A stretch of DNA of 64,000 nt from Flavihumibacter petaseus NBRC 106054 (GTDB lineage Bacteria > Bacteroidota > Bacteroidia > Chitinophagales > Chitinophagaceae), in NCBI RefSeq assembly GCF_000974785.1, contig NZ_BBWV01000002.1, positions 434,001 to 498,000 of the forward strand. Direction: 5' to 3'. Positions 16,753 through 26,120 of the stretch are shown piece after piece. The notes beneath the pieces are model-generated. The model saw only the letters and a list, made by a program, of their open reading frames with translations. It was not told the origin of the DNA and searched no databases. The translations under genes and the position numbers were made by a program. The first letter of the stretch is position 1. Every line of letters begins with the position of its first letter.

Positions 16753-17373
16753 ATGCCCAAGAAAGAATACCCACTCCAGCAATTGGAACATTTTTTACCG
16801 GCCGGTGCTTTCCAGAAAGTGGTCGTCTACCTCCATCATTACAGGGTGCACCTCAGCATTACCCGTGAACGGAAAAGTCTGCTTGGGGATTACCGCCATG
16901 CGCACAAGAATGAGCATCACCGGATCAGTGTGAACGGCAATCTGAATCCCTATGCCTTTCTGATTACCCTGGTGCACGAGCTGGCCCACCTGCTCACCTT
17001 TGAGAAATATGGCCACCGCGTAATGGCACATGGCCAGGAGTGGAAAGCGCTGTATAAACTGTTGCTTCAGGATTTTCTTGGCCGGAATATTTTTCCTGCC
17101 GATGTGGAAGCGGCTCTTTTCAAAAGTCTCCATAACCTGCCGGCCAGCAGCTGCGCTGATGAACCACTTATGCGTGTGTTGCGGAACCATGACCATCCTG
17201 CGGAGCGGTCAACCCTGGTGGAAGAATTACCGGAAGGGACATTGTTTTCTATTGCGGGCGGACGCATCTTCCGAAAGGGAAAAAAGTTACGAAAACGTTA
17301 CCAGTGCAAAGAAGTGGCGACGGGAAAACTGTATCTCTTCAGCGGACTTTATGAGGTGGAGCTGGCTTCCTGA
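16753..17373 (+). CDS. SprT-like zinc metalloprotease domain protein
   Basis: The 206-residue protein has the SprT-like HELAH zinc motif at about residues 76-80, followed by GHRVMAHGQEWK, whose second histidine is the expected third ligand. The C-terminal part (RIFRKGKKLRKRYQCKEV) resembles a degraded zinc-ribbon with few cysteines. The SprT family includes the DNA-protein crosslink protease Spartan; the bacterial role is undefined. ATG 16753 is preferred over a longer frame from 16678, which lies inside the previous gene. Its 3' end overlaps the convergent GNAT gene by 25 bases. Confidence 0.85.
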   Translation: MPKKEYPLQQLEHFLPAGAFQKVVVYLHHYRVHLSITRERKSLLGDYRHAHKNEHHRISVNGNLNPYAFLITLVHELAHLLTFEKYGHRVMAHGQEWKALYKLLLQDFLGRNIFPADVEAALFKSLHNLPASSCADEPLMRVLRNHDHPAERSTLVEELPEGTLFSIAGGRIFRKGKKLRKRYQCKEVATGKLYLFSGLYEVELAS

Positions 17374-17861
17374 TCATCCAGGTTTTTAAGCATCCATAGT
17401 CCACATCCGAAATGACCGGAGTTGCCCATTGGTGCCTTCAGGTACCTGAAACCGAATTTCTCGTACATGGACAGTGCCTTTTTCAATTCGGGCATGGTTT
17501 CAAGGTAAACTTCCCGGTATCCCAGCATGGAGGCTTCTTTAAGGCAATGGGTAACCAGCGTACCACCGGTTCCCTTTCCCCTGGCAGCAGGGGTGAGGTA
17601 CATCTTGACCAATTCACAGCAACCTTCCGGCAAGCTTTCTGTCGGGAAGATGCCTGCACCGCCCAGAAGACGTCCATCGGGCTCCTCGGCAACAAAATAA
17701 GCGCTGCGGGGTTGCCGGAAAAGTTCAAACAGATGATCAGTAGTGGGATCAAAGTAGACAGTGCCGGGTTTATCGGCACCGAATTCAGCCAGTGCTGCAC
17801 GGATGATCCCGGCTAGCACTGCATTATCTTCCGGAAGAATGGGCCTGACGCGTAAACTCAT
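17349..17861 (-). CDS. GNAT family N-acetyltransferase
   Basis: The 170-residue protein has a complete GNAT fold: the acetyl-CoA pyrophosphate loop RGKGTGG after the beta4 strand (VKMYLTP) at about residues 87-100, and a MYEKFGFRYL alpha4 motif. The substrate is unknown. It is the last gene of the minus-strand amidoligase cluster, 16 bases after the small membrane peptide. GNAT enzymes are frequent in such clusters, so an N-acyl or N-acetyl modification of the product is possible (inference). Confidence 0.88.
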   Translation of the reverse strand: MSLRVRPILPEDNAVLAGIIRAALAEFGADKPGTVYFDPTTDHLFELFRQPRSAYFVAEEPDGRLLGGAGIFPTESLPEGCCELVKMYLTPAARGKGTGGTLVTHCLKEASMLGYREVYLETMPELKKALSMYEKFGFRYLKAPMGNSGHFGCGLWMLKNLDDQEASSTS

Positions 17862-17877
17862 GGCCCAAATCTAATGA

Positions 17878-17964
17878 TCAGGCTAATACGAGGGCAAATA
17901 CTGAATAAAATACCACCAGCGAGGTGAGTATGGCGGCGAGAAATACTCTATCTACGTTTTTCAT
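17878..17964 (-). CDS. 28-residue single-span membrane peptide
   Basis: A short frame encodes MKNVDRVFLAAILTSLVV followed by ten more residues and a TGA stop. It has a basic start and one hydrophobic helix. An AAAAGG sequence sits seven bases before the ATG, unusual in this phylum where such sites are rare, and supports real translation. It lies between the cupin gene and the GNAT gene on the same strand. Function unknown; it could regulate or anchor a neighbouring enzyme. I cannot assign it to a named family. Confidence 0.5.
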   Translation of the reverse strand: MKNVDRVFLAAILTSLVVFYSVFALVLA

Positions 17965-18039
17965 AAATGGACCTTTTGCGAATAACGTGCCAAACCCCCG
18001 TTATGGTATGTAGCGAAAGCTTAATATTTTGATTGTCAG

Positions 18040-18354
18040 CTAGCGGTAGGCTTCCCTTACCGGCGTCCAGCTGTCGATCACCCGGCAATCGGTCAGTGCA
18101 AGGCCGCTGTGCGGAACATTGGGCGGGATCACCTGCACATTTCCCGGGCCGAACACGGTGGTTTTGCCGCCGATCGTCATCTGTAGCTCACCTTCAGTAA
18201 TATAGGTAATCTGTTCATTCACATGGGAATGTTCGGGAATCACAGCTCCCTTTCTGATTTCCCAGACGCCCAGGGTGCTGGATTCACCGTGAAGCATTTT
18301 GCCAAAAAGTCCCGGCAGGAACTCCTTTGCCGGAATATCGTTGAGGTGTAACAT
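18040..18354 (-). CDS. Cupin domain protein
   Basis: A single-domain cupin of 104 residues with both cupin motifs: PEHSHVNEQITYITEGELQ (metal-binding histidines and glutamate) at about 41-58 and PPNVPHSGLAL with the last histidine at about 81. Such small cupins act as isomerases, dioxygenases or metabolite sensors; nothing here fixes the substrate. It begins 15 bases after the ATP-grasp-like gene on the same strand, so it is probably part of the amidoligase operon. Confidence 0.87.
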   Translation of the reverse strand: MLHLNDIPAKEFLPGLFGKMLHGESSTLGVWEIRKGAVIPEHSHVNEQITYITEGELQMTIGGKTTVFGPGNVQVIPPNVPHSGLALTDCRVIDSWTPVREAYR

Positions 18355-18369
18355 ATGAGGCTGAATTGA

Positions 18370-19563
18370 TTATTGTTCCATGAAGCAGACTGATCCGCCG
18401 ACCCATCGCTTATCCTTATTGTAGCGGACTCCGATCATCTTTCCCTTGCTGAGGCGGGCAAGATTGATGGCAGGCCTGGGCCTTTCCCAGTCATCTTTCC
18501 AAAGGTACATGATCCGGATCTCCGTTTTGGCCGGGCCATCGGGCGTCGGGATGACGTCCGCATAATTCACCTTCTGCTGGAGGATCCAGTTTTCGGGATC
18601 GCTGATGCGTTCAATGTCAGCCTGTTCCACATCAATCACCACACCCTGTCCCGCAAAGGAAAACAGCGGTTTCAATACATACCGTGAAAGGTCTGCCGGC
18701 AACTGTTTGAGTTCATCCAGGTAATAAGTGGGTGGTACATAGGGATGGCGGATCAGCGGTAACGTGAACTTGCTGATGCGGTAAAACCAGTTGGGATGCG
18801 GCACCCATTCAACGTCCAGGTCCTGTGTAATGTCAACAAAATTACCCAGGCTGGCACGGTTGGCGTTCAGGTCATCGAAGATAACGCGGTTGTATATGCG
18901 CCGGATCCGCTGTTTCTTGCCATTGAGGAGGTAATACAGTTTCCGGCCTTCCTGGATCAGTTCGGTTATGCATACCAGTTGTATGCCGGTATAGTCGCGG
19001 GTGCAGTAAAAGTCGATCCTCGTTTTCTGCTCATGCGGCCTGATCTCCAGCAGGATGACTTCCTCAGCCTGATGGTTTCCCAACAGCACTTCCCGCAAAT
19101 CACGGAGATAAGTGTCGCGGTTATAGCCACCGAGGTATTGCTGATAATTGGCGGGTATCTCAAAATGCCGCCGCAGCACATCAGGATAGTACACCTGGAA
19201 CCCGTAAAGGGTAGGGAAGCCCTGCATCTCGATCAGTTGCGGCTCCAGTTCGCCGGCGGAATTCGTGCAAACACCAAAATCAAAAGCAATCATTTGCGGC
19301 TGGCCTGTCTCATGTGGAACATATTCCTTAACGGGAATACTTCTTTCCGTCGCCTCGGGGAATGAATCCTCCAGCACCGCGTCAATGATCGTTTCACAGG
19401 CATCCAGCATTTTAGCCGTAAATGCCTTGTCAACGAAGACCGGCGTTTCTGCCACGCGGAAATCTATTGCATTGGGATAACCGCTATGAAGATCATTCAG
19501 AAATTCCTGGTATTTCTCTTCTGTAAAATGATTATTGTAGGCTGCTCGCAGTTCGGGAACCAT
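18370..19563 (-). CDS. ATP-grasp-like protein of the amidoligase cluster
   Basis: A 397-residue protein without a precise family name that I can recall. The C-terminal third has ATP-grasp features: a lysine on a glycine-rich strand (LKPLFSFAGQGVV), a WILQQ strand at the adenine pocket, KTEIRIMYLW, and NLARLSKGKM for metal and phosphate binding. The N-terminal part carries FGVCTNSAGELEPQLIEMQ, resembling a substrate domain. It probably forms an amide bond from a carboxylate and an amine using ATP. The frame is open to 19659, but ATG 19563 (MVPELRAAYN) gives a normal 32-base overlap with the upstream amidotransferase gene instead of 128 bases. Confidence 0.7.
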   Translation of the reverse strand: MVPELRAAYNNHFTEEKYQEFLNDLHSGYPNAIDFRVAETPVFVDKAFTAKMLDACETIIDAVLEDSFPEATERSIPVKEYVPHETGQPQMIAFDFGVCTNSAGELEPQLIEMQGFPTLYGFQVYYPDVLRRHFEIPANYQQYLGGYNRDTYLRDLREVLLGNHQAEEVILLEIRPHEQKTRIDFYCTRDYTGIQLVCITELIQEGRKLYYLLNGKKQRIRRIYNRVIFDDLNANRASLGNFVDITQDLDVEWVPHPNWFYRISKFTLPLIRHPYVPPTYYLDELKQLPADLSRYVLKPLFSFAGQGVVIDVEQADIERISDPENWILQQKVNYADVIPTPDGPAKTEIRIMYLWKDDWERPRPAINLARLSKGKMIGVRYNKDKRWVGGSVCFMEQ

Positions 19564-20407
19564 GAAGGGCGCTTTTGTTATCGGGCAATTGTGCCAGTGA
19601 ACTGCTGATGAAGTTAGGCAAAACCTGCTGGTAGGTCCAACGGATTTTATCCGGATCATCCAGGTGCTCGATCATGCTTTTCCATTTCTCCAGGCCGTGA
19701 CTGTTAATCACGGTTTCTTTTTTGTCTTCCCGCTGCAGGTACATGCTCATGCCGGTTGCATCGGCTTCCGGATGGAACTGTGTGCCGATCATATATGGGT
19801 TGAATCGGATGGCCATCATTGCCCTTTCCAGCGGAACGTGGGGGCGGTCTTTTTCGATCGCAAGGATCTTTGCACCCAGTTGCCGGATCCGCACATAGTC
19901 GGGCTGTATTACCTGGAAATCGCGGCTGTCCACCGAATAAAAGGGGTCCCTGAGGTTCTCAAAAACCGGTTCACCGTGGGCACCCGGGAGGATATGGACC
20001 GGGAACACGCCGAATGCCGTAGACCGGCGACGCGTTACCTGTCCCACACCAAAATGGCGGCAAGCCAGCTGATACGAGTGGCAAATGAAGAAAACGAATT
20101 TTTTGGCGGAGTGAGCGGGGTCGGCATTAAAAAGTTCGATGTTGCGGAGCCATCCGAAGTAAACATTTTCCCATTCCGAACCGGCGGATTCAAGGGGACT
20201 CCCCGGACCGCCGCTGGAAATGTACAGATCAAAACTGAGGTCGGGTACCTGGTGTTTGATCCTCACCTCAAATTCCTCCCACACCAGGTTAATGCCGTGA
20301 TGTTCGCGATACGAGGTAAGGATTTCACGGATACAGCGCATTCCCTGGTTTTCCGCGCCTTCATAGAGATCCAATACTGCTATCCTGATGTGTTTAGCCT
20401 CATCCAT
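19532..20407 (-). CDS. Class I glutamine amidotransferase-like protein
   Basis: The 291-residue protein contains the GATase1 triad: nucleophile Cys in FFICHSYQLA (about residue 109) and the His-Glu pair in GTQFHPEAD (about 212-214), with oxyanion-forming SSGGPGSP. It is stand-alone, like GMP synthase-type amidotransferases or gamma-glutamyl hydrolases, with an extra C-terminal helical region of about 70 residues. It may supply ammonia or hydrolyse or transfer a gamma-glutamyl group in the pathway of this cluster. ATG 20407 (MDEAKHIRIAVLD) is preferred over 20425. Confidence 0.82.
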   Translation of the reverse strand: MDEAKHIRIAVLDLYEGAENQGMRCIREILTSYREHHGINLVWEEFEVRIKHQVPDLSFDLYISSGGPGSPLESAGSEWENVYFGWLRNIELFNADPAHSAKKFVFFICHSYQLACRHFGVGQVTRRRSTAFGVFPVHILPGAHGEPVFENLRDPFYSVDSRDFQVIQPDYVRIRQLGAKILAIEKDRPHVPLERAMMAIRFNPYMIGTQFHPEADATGMSMYLQREDKKETVINSHGLEKWKSMIEHLDDPDKIRWTYQQVLPNFISSSLAQLPDNKSALHGSRTASSLQ

Positions 20408-20512
20408 GTATTCAAAAATAAGCAATTTCGGGCCGCAGGTGGCGCTGGTAAGCCGTTACGGGCAAATGGATTGCCCTTTCGGGCAGCATGCGGTTGATGC
20501 TGTTCAGTCTGC

Positions 20513-22156
20513 TCATTTGGCGCCATGTACTTTTTTACCGCCTACATAGGTTGCTTCCACCCTGGTTTGCAGGATCTTTTCCGGCGCTACAGTCAGCAGG
20601 TCCTGGTCCAGCAAAACAAAGTCTGCCCATTTTCCCTTTTCCAGGCTGCCTTTTTCGCCTTCTTCAAAATTGGCTTTCGCTGCCCAGATGGTCATGCCTC
20701 TGAGGGCAGCTTCACGGGAAAGTGCATTTTCCATCTGAAAACCGCTGTCCGGCTTTCCAGCTGCATCTTTTCGCACCACCGCAGCATAAAAGGTTTTAAA
20801 TGGTGAGATGTCTTCCACCGGGAAATCGGTTCCCAGGGGGATCCAGCCATTTTGCTGCAGCAGTTGCTTATAGGCATACGCACCCTTCACGCGTTCCGGC
20901 CCAAGTCTTTTCCCTGCCCAATACATGTCTGATGTGGCATGAGTGGGTTGAACCGAGGGAACGATGGACGCAGCACCAAATTTTGCAAAATCTTCCGGCG
21001 CAATGACCTGGGCATGTTCGATCCGCCAGCGCTTATCGTTTTTGCCTTCGAGTCGCCGTAAGTAAGTGTTCAGTATCGTCCGGTTGCCACTGTCGCCGAT
21101 GGCGTGGGTGCACATCTGGAAATCGAGCGCCGCAAGCTCGTTGGCCACCGAGTCGAAATGTTTCGGGTCGCTGAGCAGAAAACCATAATGACCAGTCTGA
21201 TCAGCATAAGGTGCAAGCAGGCAGGCACCCCTTGATCCAAGGGCACCGTCAGCATATACTTTAAAGGCCCGTACCGACAGCCGGTCAGTTTTGATCTTTC
21301 CCTTTTTACGGGCGAATTCATAGTTTGCCGGGGCGTCACTCAGCATCGCGTAAACGCGCATGGACAGTTTTCCTGTTGTCTGCATACTATCGATAAAGCT
21401 GACCACACGGGCATCCAGGCCGCAGTCGTCAACCGTTGTCAGTCCAACGGCAAAGCAGTTCTGTTGCGCATCAAGTAATGCATGCTCCACATCAGCCGGG
21501 CCGGGAGCCGGTATTTTCGCATATACGAGGTCAACGGCATTGTCCACCAGCAAACCGGTCAGCCGGTTTCGATCAGTATGAACTTCACCACCGGTGAGGG
21601 TCATGCCAGGCTGCACGCCGGCAAGCGAAAGTGCCTTTGCGTTGGCGATGGCGGCATGTCCATCGATCCGAGTCAGCAAAACCGGACGGTCGGGAAATAA
21701 AGTGTTCAATACATCATTGTTGGGAAATGCCTGGACGGCCCAGTCATTTTGGTCCCAGCCTCTTCCGATCAGCCATCCGTCGGGATGACGCACTGCGAAG
21801 GCCTTCATTGTATCAAGGATCGCCTCCCAGGAAGTTGTGCCGGTCAGGTCTGCCGTCTGCAACCCGAGGCCGTAATTGAAAAAGTGGCAATGCGCATCAA
21901 TAAAGCCGGGATACAGGAATTTGCCACCTGCATCCAGAAGGTCAGGCGCATCGAATTGACCGAAGATCGCGTCATCTGACCCCGTTTCAACGATCTTTCC
22001 GTCTTTGATCGCCATTGCTGACACCCTGGAAAAAGTACTGTCTATCGTGTAGATTTTGGCGTTGTAAACGATCAGGTCTGCTTTTTTCCGGCTGCAGGAG
22101 ACACAACAAATGATGCAGAGAATTGCCGTAAGGCGGGAAATTGTTTTAAATGCCAT
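20513..22156 (-). CDS. Amidohydrolase family lipoprotein (YtcJ-like)
   Basis: A 547-residue metal-dependent amidohydrolase with a lipoprotein signal (CIICCVSCS, Cys21) and the family core: YPGFIDAHCHF near residue 100, HAAIANAKAL, the carboxyl-terminal VEDISPFKTFYAAVVR, and GKWADFVLLD. YtcJ-like enzymes hydrolyse amide or ester bonds of aromatic or formylated substrates. Being exported, it may act on the cluster product or its precursor outside the cytoplasm. Its start overlaps the carboxylate-amine ligase stop by 11 bases, and a 105-base gap follows it. Confidence 0.88.
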   Translation of the reverse strand: MAFKTISRLTAILCIICCVSCSRKKADLIVYNAKIYTIDSTFSRVSAMAIKDGKIVETGSDDAIFGQFDAPDLLDAGGKFLYPGFIDAHCHFFNYGLGLQTADLTGTTSWEAILDTMKAFAVRHPDGWLIGRGWDQNDWAVQAFPNNDVLNTLFPDRPVLLTRIDGHAAIANAKALSLAGVQPGMTLTGGEVHTDRNRLTGLLVDNAVDLVYAKIPAPGPADVEHALLDAQQNCFAVGLTTVDDCGLDARVVSFIDSMQTTGKLSMRVYAMLSDAPANYEFARKKGKIKTDRLSVRAFKVYADGALGSRGACLLAPYADQTGHYGFLLSDPKHFDSVANELAALDFQMCTHAIGDSGNRTILNTYLRRLEGKNDKRWRIEHAQVIAPEDFAKFGAASIVPSVQPTHATSDMYWAGKRLGPERVKGAYAYKQLLQQNGWIPLGTDFPVEDISPFKTFYAAVVRKDAAGKPDSGFQMENALSREAALRGMTIWAAKANFEEGEKGSLEKGKWADFVLLDQDLLTVAPEKILQTRVEATYVGGKKVHGAK

Positions 22157-23258
22157 AAAGGAATTGATCTTTGATATAGTCTACGACTGCTACCATACTG
22201 TTGGTTTCATGGTACACGCGGAGCTGACGGTCTGCGCCGGTTCCTGTTTCCAGCAAATTAGGTACCAGCTGCAGGATATGCCGGCTGCCGAGGTGATCAA
22301 CCACATCATCCACAAAGTCGAGGAGTTCATAGATCAGCACGCGCATGTTAACTTCTTCTTCCTTGCCGAAGTCAATGAGTCGTCCATCCAGGCCGTAACG
22401 GCTGGCGCGCCATTTGTTTTCATTGATCAGTGCACGGGAATACTGAATATAGTTCATGTTCTGGGTGCGCAATTTGTAGATCTTGGCGCATACTGCCTGG
22501 AAAAGGGCTGCAATCAGGATCGTTTCATGCGTAGTCATGGGAACATCGCAGATGCGGAACTCCACAGTATTGAAAAAAGGATGCACCCGAAGGTCCCACC
22601 AGATTTTTTTCGCGTTGTCGATACAATTGGTCTTCACCAGCAGTTTGATGAAATTGTCGTAATCTTCAATTGTAGCGAAATATTCAGGGATGCCAGTCCG
22701 CGGAAATTTGTCGAAAACTTTTGTCCGGAATGATTTATATCCTGTTTGTCTGCCTTCCCAGAAAGGGGAGTTGGTGCTCAGGGCATAAATATGGGGAAGG
22801 AAATAACGTGTGCTGTTCGCGATATGGTTGGCCATTTCACGGCTTTCCATACCCACATGCACGTGCAGGCCGAAGATGAGATTACTTCTCGCAGCTTCCT
22901 GCAATTCGTTTACAATTTCACTGTAACGCACATGGTCGGTGATGAGCTGGCTTTCCCAATGGCTGAAGGGATGGGTGCCCGATGCGCCCATGGCAAAACC
23001 GAGTTCTCCCGCGACCTGTGCGATGGTCTTCCGGAGATTGCCCACATCATGCAGCGCTTCATCGATGTCGCGGCAGATATCTGTACCTACTTCCACTACA
23101 GCCTGATGCATTTCCGCCTTGACCTTATCCTTGATCAGTTTTTGTCCTTCCAGAACGATCCGTTGCTCATGGCTTTTAAGCTCTCGTGTATTCGGATCAA
23201 TCACCATGTACTCTTCTTCTACACCCAGGGTGAACTGCTGGTAATTGATTGTGCTCAA
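22146..23258 (-). CDS. Carboxylate-amine ligase, GCS2 (YbdK) family
   Basis: The 370-residue protein belongs to the glutamate-cysteine ligase 2 family, with the N-terminal GVEEEYMVID metal-binding strand, GTHPFSHWE near residue 94, HVHVGMESRE near 130, and the WDLRVHPFFNTVEFRICD region. E. coli YbdK makes gamma-glutamylcysteine weakly, but most members have unknown carboxylate and amine substrates. It overlaps the amidohydrolase start, and an inverted TTTAG repeat separates it from the upstream ATP-grasp gene. It is a likely first amide-forming enzyme of the cluster. Confidence 0.92.
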   Translation of the reverse strand: MSTINYQQFTLGVEEEYMVIDPNTRELKSHEQRIVLEGQKLIKDKVKAEMHQAVVEVGTDICRDIDEALHDVGNLRKTIAQVAGELGFAMGASGTHPFSHWESQLITDHVRYSEIVNELQEAARSNLIFGLHVHVGMESREMANHIANSTRYFLPHIYALSTNSPFWEGRQTGYKSFRTKVFDKFPRTGIPEYFATIEDYDNFIKLLVKTNCIDNAKKIWWDLRVHPFFNTVEFRICDVPMTTHETILIAALFQAVCAKIYKLRTQNMNYIQYSRALINENKWRASRYGLDGRLIDFGKEEEVNMRVLIYELLDFVDDVVDHLGSRHILQLVPNLLETGTGADRQLRVYHETNSMVAVVDYIKDQFLYGI

Positions 23259-23267
23259 TGTAAAAAG

Positions 23268-23445
23268 TGTTTAGATGTTTAGATGTATAGAAGTTTAGTA
23301 GTTTACCACCCGACGTTTGAATATTTCCTGTGATTGTTAGATGCTTGTGGTTGTGGGTAACCGTAGTTTGACATTTTAATAGTTGAAGCGTTAAATCTGC
23401 GGGGAACTAACAAATAAACCAGTAAACAGTTAAACTACTAAACTA
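23268..23445. repeat. TTTAG-type intergenic element with inverted arms (copy 1)
   Basis: Left arm 23268-23310 and right arm 23405-23445 are made of TTTAG words on opposite strands. They share a perfect 14-base inverted match (23292-23305 with 23431-23444). About 95 bases separate them. The right arm supplies the TAG stop of the ATP-grasp gene. A second element of the same layout lies at 50124-50285. Confidence 0.7.
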
Positions 23446-24391
23446 ATTTCTTCTTCGCCGCGCTTCTCGTTACATACTCGCCCCAGGTCAGGTTATCCTG
23501 ATTGGGCTGGTGTGCCATCGCTTTTTCAATGGCAAAATTGGCGGCAGTTTCTACTACCCAGGCGAAATTGTCTTCCCCTACACTTTTGATATCAGCATCC
23601 GGGGCCGGATTGCAAAAGTCGATGGCATAGGGGATGCCATCCCGCAACGCGAGTTCAACCGTATTGAAATCATAACCGAGGTAGTGGTTGATGCGGAGCA
23701 CGATGTCCTCCATCAGTTTCAGTTTTTCAGGGCTGGGACTGAAACCAGCCTGGTACCTGAGGTGATGCGGATTGCGCGGTTCATATGGCATGATCCGTAC
23801 ATATTTGCCGCCGATACAATAGCACCGGTAATATTCCTCAAACACGATCTCTTCCTGCAGCAGCATTACCAGTTCGCCTGTTTCTCCGTGCTTTTCAAAA
23901 AAGTCATTCATGCTTACCAGCTTGTACACATTCTTCCAGCCGCCGCCGGCAAATGGCTTCATATATGCGGGAAATCCGATATAATTAAAGATGCTCTCCC
24001 AATCCAGCGGATAGGCCAGGTTGCTGAACGACTGATCCGTCGTATCAGCGGGATGATCCCGTGAGGGGAGGATCACGGTTTTGGGTACCGGAACACCGAT
24101 CTTGGTAGCCAGGCAGTTGTTGAAGAATTTTTCGTCTGCGCTCCACCAGAATGGATTATTGATCACCGCTGTACCACAAAGCGCAGCGTTTTTCAGGTAG
24201 GCCCGGTAAAAGGGGACGTCCTGTGAAATCCGGTCAAGTATAACCGCATAGTCAGTTGCTTCACCCTGAACGACTTTGGAGATGTTCACCGGTTCAGCCG
24301 TTATACCCTCGATTTGTTTGCTGTTAATCCTCTCGATAAAGGCCATGGGAAAGCTCCTTTCCTGGCCAAACAGGATGCCGATCTTCTTCAT
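23438..24391 (-). CDS. ATP-grasp ligase (RimK/D-Ala-D-Ala ligase-like)
   Basis: The 317-residue protein has an N-terminal Rossmann-like lobe (KKIGILFGQERSF), then ATP-grasp strands: PAYMKPFAGGGWKNV with the adenine lysine and glycine loop at about 144-158, LLQEEIVFEEYYR, and the metal-binding LALRDGIPYAIDFCNPAPD at about 266-284. It likely activates a carboxylate as acyl phosphate and couples it to an amine. It is the first minus-strand gene of the cluster; the esterase gene diverges 88 bases away. The TAG stop lies in a repeat arm, so the last residues (AAKKKLV) may have been affected by repeat insertion. Confidence 0.87.
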   Translation of the reverse strand: MKKIGILFGQERSFPMAFIERINSKQIEGITAEPVNISKVVQGEATDYAVILDRISQDVPFYRAYLKNAALCGTAVINNPFWWSADEKFFNNCLATKIGVPVPKTVILPSRDHPADTTDQSFSNLAYPLDWESIFNYIGFPAYMKPFAGGGWKNVYKLVSMNDFFEKHGETGELVMLLQEEIVFEEYYRCYCIGGKYVRIMPYEPRNPHHLRYQAGFSPSPEKLKLMEDIVLRINHYLGYDFNTVELALRDGIPYAIDFCNPAPDADIKSVGEDNFAWVVETAANFAIEKAMAHQPNQDNLTWGEYVTRSAAKKKLV

Positions 24392-24479
24392 GCGCGCGCT
24401 GCGGTTTAATGGTTACTAACTGCAGTCAATATACTGGATTTTCGGCAAAAACCTGTAATTTACCGGCTTTACAACCTGC

Positions 24480-25322
24480 ATGAGAGGAACTGAAGTACAA
24501 CAACCCGTGAGCCTGGAAAACAGTAATGCAATTGAACACATCCGACTGGAAATTGAGTCGGTGTGGCTGGACAGAACCGTTATATCGGAAGCCTTCTTTC
24601 CAGGAGCGATTTCCCCCTCCGTTACACCATCGCTGTTGCTGATGAATGATGGTCAGCACCTCACAGAACTGGATGTTACCGCTTTACTGGAAGAAGGGTA
24701 CCATAGCGGAACGTTGCGGCCGCTTGTCGTGATCGGGATCCATGCGGGTCCGGAAAGGAAACGTGAATATGGTACCGCTGCACAGGCCGACTATCTCGGG
24801 CGGGGTGACAAAGCAAATGCCTATACGCAGTTTGTCTTCAGGGAATTGTTGCCGGCATGGCGGAAGGCGCTTCCGTGGAGCGAATTCCGCGAGAAAATAT
24901 TCGCAGGATTTTCCCTTGGCGGTTTGAGTGCGCTTGATATTGTCTGGGCCCATCCGCACGAGTTTACCAAAGTAGGTGTGTTCAGTGGATCATTTTGGTG
25001 GCGCAGCCTCGACCAGGATGATGCAGCATACAACGATAACCTGCACCGGATCATGCACCAGATGATCCGCAAAGGCAACTTTGCTCCATGGCTGCAGTTC
25101 TTCTTTGAAACAGGATCGCTGGATGAGACCAATGACCGCAACGGCAACGGCATTATCGATTCCATTGACGATACCTGTGACCTGATCACCGAACTGAAAA
25201 CCAAAGGTTATCCTGCAGAACAAATCGCCTATCTCGAAATAGCAGATGGCAAGCATGATATCACCACCTGGTCCAGGGCGATGCCCGCTTTTCTCCGCTG
25301 GGCATTTGCGTATGGACAGTAG
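24480..25322 (+). CDS. Esterase, alpha/beta hydrolase fold (Fes/esterase D-like)
   Basis: A 280-residue cytoplasmic esterase of the enterochelin esterase/antigen 85-like family. The nucleophile serine is in FAGFSLGGLSA at about residue 142, and VFSGSFWWRS follows. The final histidine is in DGKHDITTW at about residue 260, and an aspartate is expected near FFETGSLDE. It is transcribed divergently from the ATP-grasp gene across 88 bases, a common layout for a cluster with a shared control region. It may hydrolyse an ester or thioester intermediate. It ends 3 bases from the convergent hydrolase gene. Confidence 0.85.
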   Translation: MRGTEVQQPVSLENSNAIEHIRLEIESVWLDRTVISEAFFPGAISPSVTPSLLLMNDGQHLTELDVTALLEEGYHSGTLRPLVVIGIHAGPERKREYGTAAQADYLGRGDKANAYTQFVFRELLPAWRKALPWSEFREKIFAGFSLGGLSALDIVWAHPHEFTKVGVFSGSFWWRSLDQDDAAYNDNLHRIMHQMIRKGNFAPWLQFFFETGSLDETNDRNGNGIIDSIDDTCDLITELKTKGYPAEQIAYLEIADGKHDITTWSRAMPAFLRWAFAYGQ

Positions 25323-25325
25323 CGG

Positions 25326-26120
25326 TCATTTCCGCAGGAAATCCAGCACCGCAACCGCAAATTCAGGTGTTCTTACCGCACCACCGTGATCGCCGGGTAC
25401 TGTTACATATTTTCCATTTGAAAACAGGTCTGCCAGATCAGACGCCTTGCCGTTATCGGAATCTTCCTTCCCGCAAACTACCAGTACGGGTTGTTTCACT
25501 TTTGCCAGTGCCGCTTTCGGTGTGGATGGTTGTTCCTTTTGCAACAGGGCGAGTGCCTGCTGGTCGAGTCCACTCTGCTGAACATAACGCACCATAGGTT
25601 CCAGCTCTTTCACCGTGTCGCCGCTGAGTGCACGGTAAAACATTTTGCGGCGGGGCCATTCGGGATCTGTAAAATCAGTTCCCATCCCACCCATTACTGC
25701 ACGCCGTAATCGTTTATCCATTACAAGCAGTCTTGCAGTAATGATCGATCCCCGCGAATAGCCGACGGCAGTGTACTGCTCCAGGTTGAATTTGTCAGCC
25801 AGCAGCATGATGTCTTTTGCCTCTGCATCATTCGCATAGGCGTCAGCCAGATGCGGTTTTCCAGATTTTCCGTTACCCCTCAGGTCCATGGTAATCACCC
25901 GGTAACCCGAACGCAGCAATGAATCATACAAAGCTGTTTTTTTCCAGCTCTCACCATTTACAATAAACCCGTGAATCAGCAGCACAGGATCTCCGTTCCC
26001 CCTGGATTCATAATAAATGGGCGTGTGACCTATACCATCCAGGTAGCCCGAATCAACCTGGCCGTATACTTTTACAGTCAGCAGGAGCATCATCGTCATG
26101 CCGCCAAACACTCTTTTCAC
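25326..26120 (-). CDS. Secreted alpha/beta hydrolase
   Basis: Residues from the GTG at 26120 give a signal peptide (basic KR, hydrophobic MTMMLLLTVKV, cleavage after YGQ). The hydrolase core follows: LLIHGFIVNGESW oxyanion region, MDLRGNGKSGKP, and the nucleophile elbow AVGYSRGS, with the late VPGDHGGAV histidine. Length from there is 264 residues. The longer frame to 26294 reads through a CGCAAAG-type intergenic repeat and gives arginine-lysine junk, so it is rejected as coding. The substrate is unknown; it could be a lactonase for the divergent sugar-acid genes (inference only). Confidence 0.82.
   Translation of the reverse strand: MKRVFGGMTMMLLLTVKVYGQVDSGYLDGIGHTPIYYESRGNGDPVLLIHGFIVNGESWKKTALYDSLLRSGYRVITMDLRGNGKSGKPHLADAYANDAEAKDIMLLADKFNLEQYTAVGYSRGSIITARLLVMDKRLRRAVMGGMGTDFTDPEWPRRKMFYRALSGDTVKELEPMVRYVQQSGLDQQALALLQKEQPSTPKAALAKVKQPVLVVCGKEDSDNGKASDLADLFSNGKYVTVPGDHGGAVRTPEFAVAVLDFLRK

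Follow-up and report, generated by a model that had tools for sequence, protein, structure and literature searches.

A conserved four-gene unit of Bacteroidota with three ligases of amide-bond-forming type probably directs the synthesis of a small peptide-like compound

In a 64,000-nucleotide stretch of the Flavihumibacter petaseus NBRC 106054 genome (the window), genes for several ligases of amide-bond-forming families lie next to genes for hydrolases and other enzymes, raising the question of which of these genes form a functional unit and what such a unit might make. The coordinates and family calls of the original prediction were upheld on re-examination (Table 1). It had counted eight minus-strand genes; seven longer than 100 aa were found, and the 28-aa microORF at 17878-17964 would be the eighth. 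The tight spacing that it described applies to three junctions (overlaps of 11 bp between GCS2 and the amidohydrolase gene and of 32 bp between GAT and AG2, and a 15-bp gap between AG2 and the cupin gene), but not to the other three, where the gaps are 179 bp (AG1/GCS2), 105 bp (amidohydrolase/GAT) and 178 bp (cupin/GNAT). The AG2 start codon is most likely the ATG at 19563, rather than the ATG of the longest open reading frame at 19659, because homology in 25 aligned rows, whose start codons had been picked for closeness to this position, begins there and the open frames of two relatives comprise just 398 codons. None of the PADLOC anti-phage defence models matched any of seven proteins of the locus.

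Table 1. Genes of the ligase locus and its surroundings, in window coordinates.
Feature	Coordinates	Strand	Length	Remarks
AG1, RimK/LysX-like unpermuted ATP-grasp ligase	23438..24391	-	317 aa	first gene of the unit
GCS2, YbdK-type carboxylate-amine ligase	22146..23258	-	370 aa	
Amidohydro_3 metal-dependent hydrolase	20513..22156	-	547 aa	PF07969, 317 bits; lipoprotein-like N-terminus; accessory
GAT, class I glutamine-amidotransferase-fold protein	19532..20407	-	291 aa	
AG2, predicted circularly permuted ATP-grasp (glutathione synthetase/glutathionylspermidine synthetase/YgiC fold)	18370..19563	-	397 aa	
Small cupin	18040..18354	-	104 aa	PF07883; accessory
Membrane-type microORF	17878..17964	-	28 aa	directly upstream of GNAT; outside the unit
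GNAT acetyltransferase	17349..17861	-		judged outside the unit
PF00756 esterase	24480..25322	+	280 aa	divergent; enterochelin-esterase-like score far under that family's cut-off

The cluster is genuine, but its boundaries have to be redrawn: the conserved unit consists of the four genes AG1, GCS2, GAT and AG2. Gene content was compared across 395 Bacteroidota genomes, as raw counts that ignore shared ancestry and stand without an unrelated-gene control. AG2 is present in 114 of these genomes, where it is accompanied by AG1 in 110 and by GCS2 in 109; similarly, 84 of the 86 GAT genomes carry AG1. The trio AG1, GCS2 and AG2 occurs in 105 genomes, about one quarter of the sample, in 44 of them without clustering. 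All four genes are found in 64 genomes, and AG1, GAT and AG2 are present without GCS2 in 4 more. The four genes are clustered in 38 of the 64, which belong to 7 families, and every one of these 38 has the order AG1>GCS2>GAT>AG2; in the other 26 the genes are not all together, partly due to contig breaks, and the content is still kept. The grouping of these four genes and the esterase gene exceeds chance by far. Thus, the claim that two ATP-grasp proteins and a GCS2 ligase are kept together in relatives held for this core, by co-occurrence as well as by fixed order. No description of the AG1/GCS2/GAT/AG2 unit was found in the literature searched; the Iyer 2009 ATP-grasp amidoligase survey, the likeliest place for it, lay outside that search; it reportedly includes a ligase of the GCS2 fold next to a class I hydrolase of the GATase fold, and may list the unit.

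The remaining neighbours are less constant. The amidohydrolase gene lies within the unit, and the cupin gene adjoins AG2, in 15 of 33 relatives' loci each, all from the family of the window (only 5 of the 33 loci come from other families). Both are lineage-restricted accessories, and the amidohydrolase, seen only in the window's family, no longer stands as a general pathway step. Of 36 loci, the window counted, 24 have a PF00756-type esterase gene no more than 1.5 kb from AG1. The GNAT protein had been proposed as a tailoring or recycling enzyme; in 10 of 13 same-genus loci its gene lies about 8–9 kb from AG2 (the locus edge limits the stretch), beside the 28-residue microORF, and it was rejected as a member of the unit on account of this distance. 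It is found nearer AG2, with one gene between, in one further locus (L045). The microORF is kept in all 11 same-genus loci tested (11 of 13 fetched), at the GNAT position and not in the ligase cluster.

The original prediction had left in doubt whether the protein encoded at 18.4-19.6 kb, AG2, has the ATP-grasp fold. No Pfam family scored above cut-off with AG2; however, its predicted structure (pLDDT 92.3) matches ATP-grasp proteins over the whole length. Structure comparison gave Z scores of 26.2 with E. coli YgiC (344 residues aligned, rmsd 3.5), 26.2 with YjfC and 25.4 with the glutathionylspermidine synthetase GspS, and the top 26 matches are all of the GSS, GspS, TryS, YgiC, Cp1B or 3n6x type or their relatives (Z 19.8-26.2). 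On this structural model, AG2 is a circularly permuted ATP-grasp protein of the GSS/GspS/YgiC type. Residues K298, P299, G305 and G307, which correspond to the ATP-loop lysine and a glycine-containing loop, are invariant in 25 of 25 rows, and the loop aligns with KPIFSREGANV of YgiC (E 0.099). YgiC, YjfC and GspS thus share with AG2 one fold over the whole model (343-344 residues aligned) and the ATP-loop lysine, but differ from it by an identity of only 9-17% and by the linkage of AG2 to GCS2, AG1 and GAT. In addition, AG2 lacks the glutamate of the YgiC KPxFSRE loop (KPLFSFAG versus KPIFSREG) and we have therefore assigned it to the fold but to neither the YgiC nor the GspS family. Its presumed metal site, assigned by position only, is an invariant E112-x-Q114 in place of E-x-N; together with the missing glutamate, this makes an altered catalysis possible. 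Passages of PMC12568646 name YgiC and YjfC peptidylpolyamine synthetases, and describe Cp1B, the ATP-grasp of the E-64 pathway, as a standalone ligase in NRPS-independent pseudopeptide synthesis. Cp1B (9cjn) resembles AG2 (Z 22.3, 356 residues aligned, rmsd 3.7); nevertheless it is fungal, and its partner ligase according to these passages is an amide bond synthetase and not a GCS2 protein (PMC12568646).

The two other ligases are closer to described families. GCS2 matches PF04107 with 200 bits, passes the NCBIfam PRK13515 equivalog (513.8 bits, cut-off 371) and is aligned with E. coli YbdK (PDB 1r8g) by a profile match of 1.4e-55 over positions 6-338 of 369; unlike YbdK, it is part of a multi-ligase unit. 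The GhExE signature of the family, as given in PMC2588565, is present: all 10 rows share G12, E14, E15 and E16. For AG1, the ATP-grasp fold and a RimK-like character are confirmed at the level of the predicted model (pLDDT 78.5), which superimposes on RimK with a Z score of 18.9 (rmsd 3.5, 262 residues aligned); K145, the GGGW loop, E246, D258 and N261 are invariant in 13 of 13 rows. AG1 scores 24.7 bits against the NCBIfam rimK_fam cut-off of 143.4, and is above cut-off for no Pfam family, R2K_2 included. With RimK as its nearest structural match, and graspetide ligases among its best Foldseek matches, the unit might modify a protein or a ribosomal peptide, by RimK-like tail addition or as a graspetide system, rather than make a free small molecule. 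In 11 of 13 AG1 rows, weak scores with the R2K clade (best E 0.0015) point the same way. We nevertheless regard this as improbable, as the cluster holds no conserved precursor-like small ORF: we compared the 11 intergenic ORFs of window positions 17001-25500 that encode 18-100 aa with 11 loci of the same genus, and no ORF within the ligase cluster was firmly matched, the only firm matches being the GNAT-linked microORF and an overlapping opposite-strand ORF (best 8.7e-6). The presence of a GCS2 ligase and of a slot for a hydrolase would also better suit free metabolites.

The folds of GCS2, AG1 and AG2 parallel those of gamma-glutamylcysteine ligase, glutathione synthetase and glutathionylspermidine synthetase, and the three enzymes, acting in this sequence, could make a glutathione-like or glutathionylspermidine-like thiol. 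Such a product appears decidedly improbable: all 29 relatives encode BshC of bacillithiol synthesis, whether or not they have the cluster, so that the main thiol is probably bacillithiol, which is still compatible with a second thiol. In a search confined to the prokaryotic glutathione synthetase, its domain GSH-S_ATP (PF02955) had no match in genome G000; it exceeds the cut-off in 6 of the 29 relatives and in only 1 of 15 genomes of the window's genus.

GAT has the class I GATase fold (PF00117, 32 bits, cut-off 22.8), and Cys109, His212 and Glu214, which we take to be its catalytic triad, are invariant in 16 of 16 rows. The fold and the full triad would allow a true amidotransferase, whose glutamine hydrolysis feeds ammonia to AG2, as CarA does for the ATP-grasp protein CarB, yielding a peptide amide. 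GAT directly precedes and overlaps AG2 in the window, firm matches to the two proteins occur in exactly the same genomes among 59 relatives (34 each), and GAT lies inside 69 of 80 named AG2 loci, 53 of which show neither AG1 nor GCS2 in the fetched stretch (all four genes are inside just 14 of the 80). This pairing, tighter than that of AG1 or GCS2 with AG2, keeps ammonia donation alive; yet we consider it rather unlikely. The usual nucleophile motif of class I amidotransferases is C-x-G-x-Q, from which the C-H-S-F/Y-Q of GAT departs. GAT is missing from 45 of the 114 AG2 genomes, and 16 GAT genomes carry AG1 without AG2, although the four such loci that were read have another permuted ATP-grasp gene beside GAT. 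Finally, in 7 genomes of 5 families the GAT slot is occupied by an M29 metallopeptidase-like gene, whose product is not expected to supply ammonia.

This exchange favours GAT as a hydrolase. Of the 45 AG2 genomes that lack GAT, 8 have a close M29 orthologue, against none of the 35 tested genomes with GAT, and the M29 label requires 4 changes on the ligase tree. As 37 of the 45 contain neither GAT nor a close M29 gene, the trimming step would not be universal; proteins of the M29 fold, moreover, need not be peptidases. Passages of PMC2588565 predict neighbourhoods of a GCS2-like family and a 'glutamine amidotransferase-like thiol peptidase', which likewise adjoin a GCS2-fold ligase and a class I GATase-fold hydrolase, but these passages contain no AG1, AG2 or M29 exchange. 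In the unit described here, the combination of GCS2 with a class I GATase-fold hydrolase resembles the PuuA/PuuD logic, by which amines would be glutamylated, processed and released by a PuuD-like GAT in a catabolic route. This is highly improbable, as three ligases exceed the needs of such a route and no further partner gene recurs within the unit in the loci compared, whose neighbours are only partly annotated.

The four-gene set probably makes a small peptide-like compound, and our preferred, still tentative, reading is that AG1, GCS2 and AG2 are three ATP-dependent amide-bond formers of one NRPS-independent pathway to a small gamma-glutamyl peptide-type compound, with GAT as a hydrolase. 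GCS2 would most likely form a gamma-glutamyl amide, AG1 would add an amino acid in the manner of RimK, and AG2, as a YgiC/GspS/GSS-type enzyme, would attach an amine or an amino acid to a carboxylate as a cap. GAT would most likely act next to AG2 as a Cys-His-Glu hydrolase that trims an intermediate or the product, for example by removing a gamma-glutamyl group; elsewhere in the phylum, the M29-type metallopeptidase may take over this task. The esterase next to the unit might cleave or recycle an ester or thioester.

A more specific and rather doubtful proposal is that a YbdK-type ligase, a RimK-like ligase and a new permuted ATP-grasp family form a standard three-ligase line for a widespread primary or signalling metabolite of Bacteroidota, probably an amine- or polyamine-capped gamma-glutamyl peptide, which would be processed by an interchangeable hydrolase, either one of the Cys-His-Glu GATase fold or an M29 metallopeptidase. 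If this is true, the frequency of the trio in the sampled genomes implies that a common class of bacterial compounds has been missed so far, and a compound kept so widely is likely to be important in physiology. AG2, which is above no Pfam cut-off, is a candidate for biocatalytic amide-bond formation, and an operon slot in which a metallopeptidase-like gene can replace one of cysteine-hydrolase fold offers a specific and testable clue to the chemistry. All four genes lie within the fetched stretch in Niastella yeongjuensis DSM 17621, Longitalea luteola and Gynurincola endophyticus, among others, and the question can therefore be approached at the bench.

Part of the amidoligase prediction for this region of a Chitinophagaceae genome held. 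The original prediction had placed at 17349-25322 an uncharacterised cluster including an amidohydrolase, a cupin, a GNAT acetyltransferase and an esterase. The claim stood for a core of four genes, encoding a RimK-like ATP-grasp protein (AG1), a YbdK-type carboxylate-amine ligase (GCS2), a class I glutamine-amidotransferase-fold protein (GAT) and a circularly permuted ATP-grasp protein (AG2), whereas the gene count and membership were both corrected. This unit is a predicted amidoligase cluster, of a known kind in a variant form.

Positions of the core genes, their neighbours and the variant loci
Feature	Position	Strand	Remark
AG1	23438-24391	minus	first in gene order
GCS2	22146-23258	minus	second in gene order
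Amidohydrolase	20513-22156	minus	between GCS2 and GAT
GAT	19532-20407	minus	between amidohydrolase and AG2
AG2	18370-19563	minus	between GAT and cupin
Cupin	18040-18354	minus	after AG2
MicroORF, 28 aa, membrane-type	17878-17964	minus	some distance past cupin
GNAT	17349-17861	minus	after microORF
Esterase	24480-25322	plus	divergent from AG1 side
Variant loci	L071:4659-9034, L072:3719-8715, L074:3747-8370, L075:4086-7236		

In a set of 59 near relatives the numbers of carriers were 34 for AG2, 34 for GAT, 33 (firm matches) for AG1 and 32 for GCS2, these counts excluding weak matches (AG1 in G042, G047 and G055; GAT in G041). Four phylum searches of the same 395 Bacteroidota genomes identified AG1 in 134, GCS2 in 129, AG2 in 114 and GAT in 86, the AG2 carriers spanning 26 families as counted by eye. 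AG2 was accompanied by AG1 in 110 and by GCS2 in 109 of its 114 genomes; the AG1, GCS2 and AG2 trio was present in 105 genomes and all four genes in 64. The four genes were clustered on one strand in 38 of these 64 (7 families, by eye), invariably in the order AG1, GCS2, GAT, AG2 (38/38), and the other 26 kept all four genes without having them all together, a class that includes contig breaks such as those of G121, G164 and G306. The clustering count left out most unlinked GCS2 rows and six AG1 rows; inspection of these genomes by eye found none with the trio together and one missed AG1-GCS2 pair (G263). Because the genes co-occur in genomes even when they are unlinked, these data are best explained by AG1, GCS2, GAT and AG2 belonging to one shared pathway, the Fisher tests of co-occurrence being blind to shared ancestry. 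Genomes outside Bacteroidota were covered by a single scan, restricted to the matches listed.

Neither AG1 nor AG2 scored above any cut-off in the Pfam comparison, and the Pfam family GSP_synth gave faint scores in 12 of 25 AG2 homologues (best E 0.0048). The protein alignments and profiles each comprised part of the available rows (A1, 25; A2, 13; A3, 16, with L031 dropped; A4, 10; A5, 5; A6, 4). Structure models built on small alignments, 25 rows for AG2 and 13 for AG1, had mean pLDDT values of 92.3 and 78.5 respectively. The AG1 model matched RimK (Z 18.9, 262 aligned residues, rmsd 3.5), as well as LysX/ArgX and other ATP-grasp ligases. The AG2 model matched enzymes of the circularly permuted type: YjfC and YgiC (both Z 26.2), which PMC12568646 names peptidylpolyamine synthetases, GspS (25.4), eukaryote glutathione synthetases (24.8 and below) and the E-64 ligase Cp1B (22.3). 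The protein at 18.4-19.6 kb, whose fold had been in doubt, has the permuted ATP-grasp fold in the model and so passes the check that the original prediction set for it. The Z differences among the top rows of this model are too small to pick its nearest substrate class. Compared with YgiC, AG2 retains the ATP-loop lysine but is without the glutamate that YgiC has in this loop.

A GCS2 enzyme makes a gamma-glutamyl amide, an enzyme of the RimK/LysX type attaches an amino acid, and one of the YgiC/YjfC/GspS/GSS type puts an amine or an amino acid on a peptide as its cap. The most economical reading, to which we give somewhat less than an even chance, is that GCS2, AG1 and AG2 would together build a small product of the gamma-glutamyl peptide type, that GAT, or a metallopeptidase of family M29 encoded in its place, would trim the product or an intermediate, and that the esterase would handle the product; the step order, the substrates and the product are those that we infer. 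A glutathione-like thiol serving as a glutathione substitute is a less likely product, because each of 29 relatives has BshC and the genome of the window lacks GSH-S_ATP. Modification of a protein or RiPP was also weighed, against which stands the lack of a conserved precursor ORF in the stretch tested; no ribosomal precursor peptide for the unit was found there. Amine catabolism was weighed as well. Searches for a mobile or defence origin came back empty for AG2 among plasmids, for AG1 among phages and in PADLOC.

Among the AG2 matches listed (80 named loci), the fetched stretch contained GAT in 69, GCS2 in 16 and all four genes in 14, so that among these matches no two genes of the unit pair as closely in this part of the phylum as GAT and AG2; in the 59 relatives the two genes also have identical distributions. 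Because GAT stays so near AG2 and shares its distribution in this way, donation of ammonia by GAT to AG2 is the strongest rival reading, yet we hold it to be rather unlikely, since a gene of the M29 family can occupy the GAT slot and a metallopeptidase is not expected to supply ammonia. In five loci the gap that separates AG2 from GCS2 holds a gene of 339-342 aa of this family (membership by Pfam for two of the five, the others aligning at 64-71% identity). In a search of 80 of the 114 AG2 genomes (all 45 GAT-less and 35 of the 69 GAT-bearing), a close M29 orthologue was found in 8/45 GAT-less versus 0/35 GAT-bearing genomes, and seven of the eight lie between AG2 and GCS2, in 5 families counted by eye. 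Ten of the 35 GAT-bearing genomes, and three of the eight with the close orthologue, have a more distant M29 relative (E 1e-14 to 4e-37). On a three-ligase tree of 38 loci, which is unrooted and gives no direction for the exchange, the M29 label takes 4 changes to explain with loci of neither gene included, and GAT and M29 are only 3 changes apart once those loci are removed; the M29 locus L064 groups with the GAT locus L167 in family f54 (SH-aLRT 99%). Of the five loci with neither gene, three come from genomes that carry GAT at another place. That GAT and M29 genes share one slot speaks for GAT as a hydrolase, as proposed in the gamma-glutamyl peptide reading; this evidence is suggestive rather than proof, because 37 of the 45 GAT-less genomes have neither GAT nor a close M29. 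GAT also matched homoserine O-succinyltransferase (PDB 2vdj, E 2.4e-4).

A literature search yielded no paper that we recognised as describing the unit; the Iyer 2009 survey may list it, and we do not claim its absence from print. The unit is notable for its breadth in Bacteroidota, for an AG2 family with no Pfam model above cut-off, and for the GAT/M29 exchange.

The accessory genes are less constant. In 33 relatives' loci, drawn from the same 59 genomes, the amidohydrolase and the cupin each accompany the core in 15, all from the family of the window, and 20 further loci were given no label for either. In 24 of 36 loci, the window included, AG1 has an esterase of the PF00756 type no more than 1.5 kb away, 12 of these loci being from the genus of the window; the esterase profile was built partly from loci later counted with it. 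Membership of GNAT was not borne out, and we rejected it as a pathway member: in 10 of the 13 loci from the same genus it sits beside the microORF at ∼8–9 kb from AG2, and the genes in between encode a TonB receptor, a fusion of an RND pump with an outer-membrane factor, and an HlyD protein. All 11 same-genus loci compared keep the microORF, which lies 16 bp upstream of GNAT in the window, at the GNAT position ∼9 kb from AG2; the microORF and GNAT may form a microprotein/acetyltransferase pair. The cupin-GNAT gap of the window (17965-18039) is without the transport genes of its same-genus relatives, which in L031-L034 and L036-L043 comprise the TonB receptor, a 126-aa protein, the AcrB-type pump fusion (∼1455 aa) and the HlyD protein; the pump fusion is found in 12 of 13 same-genus loci and in L047. 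Two small genes of 157 and 111 aa, with no Pfam match, lie between GCS2 and the amidohydrolase (L036:5568-6397 and equivalents) in eight and six same-genus loci respectively, and are absent from the window.

A sister arrangement without AG2 was read in four loci of other families (ORFs in the GC-rich loci L073, L076 and L077 were picked on the wrong strand). Here a CP_ATPgrasp_2-like permuted ligase of ∼460 aa lies between AG1 and GAT, and esterases are found nearby in three of the four loci.
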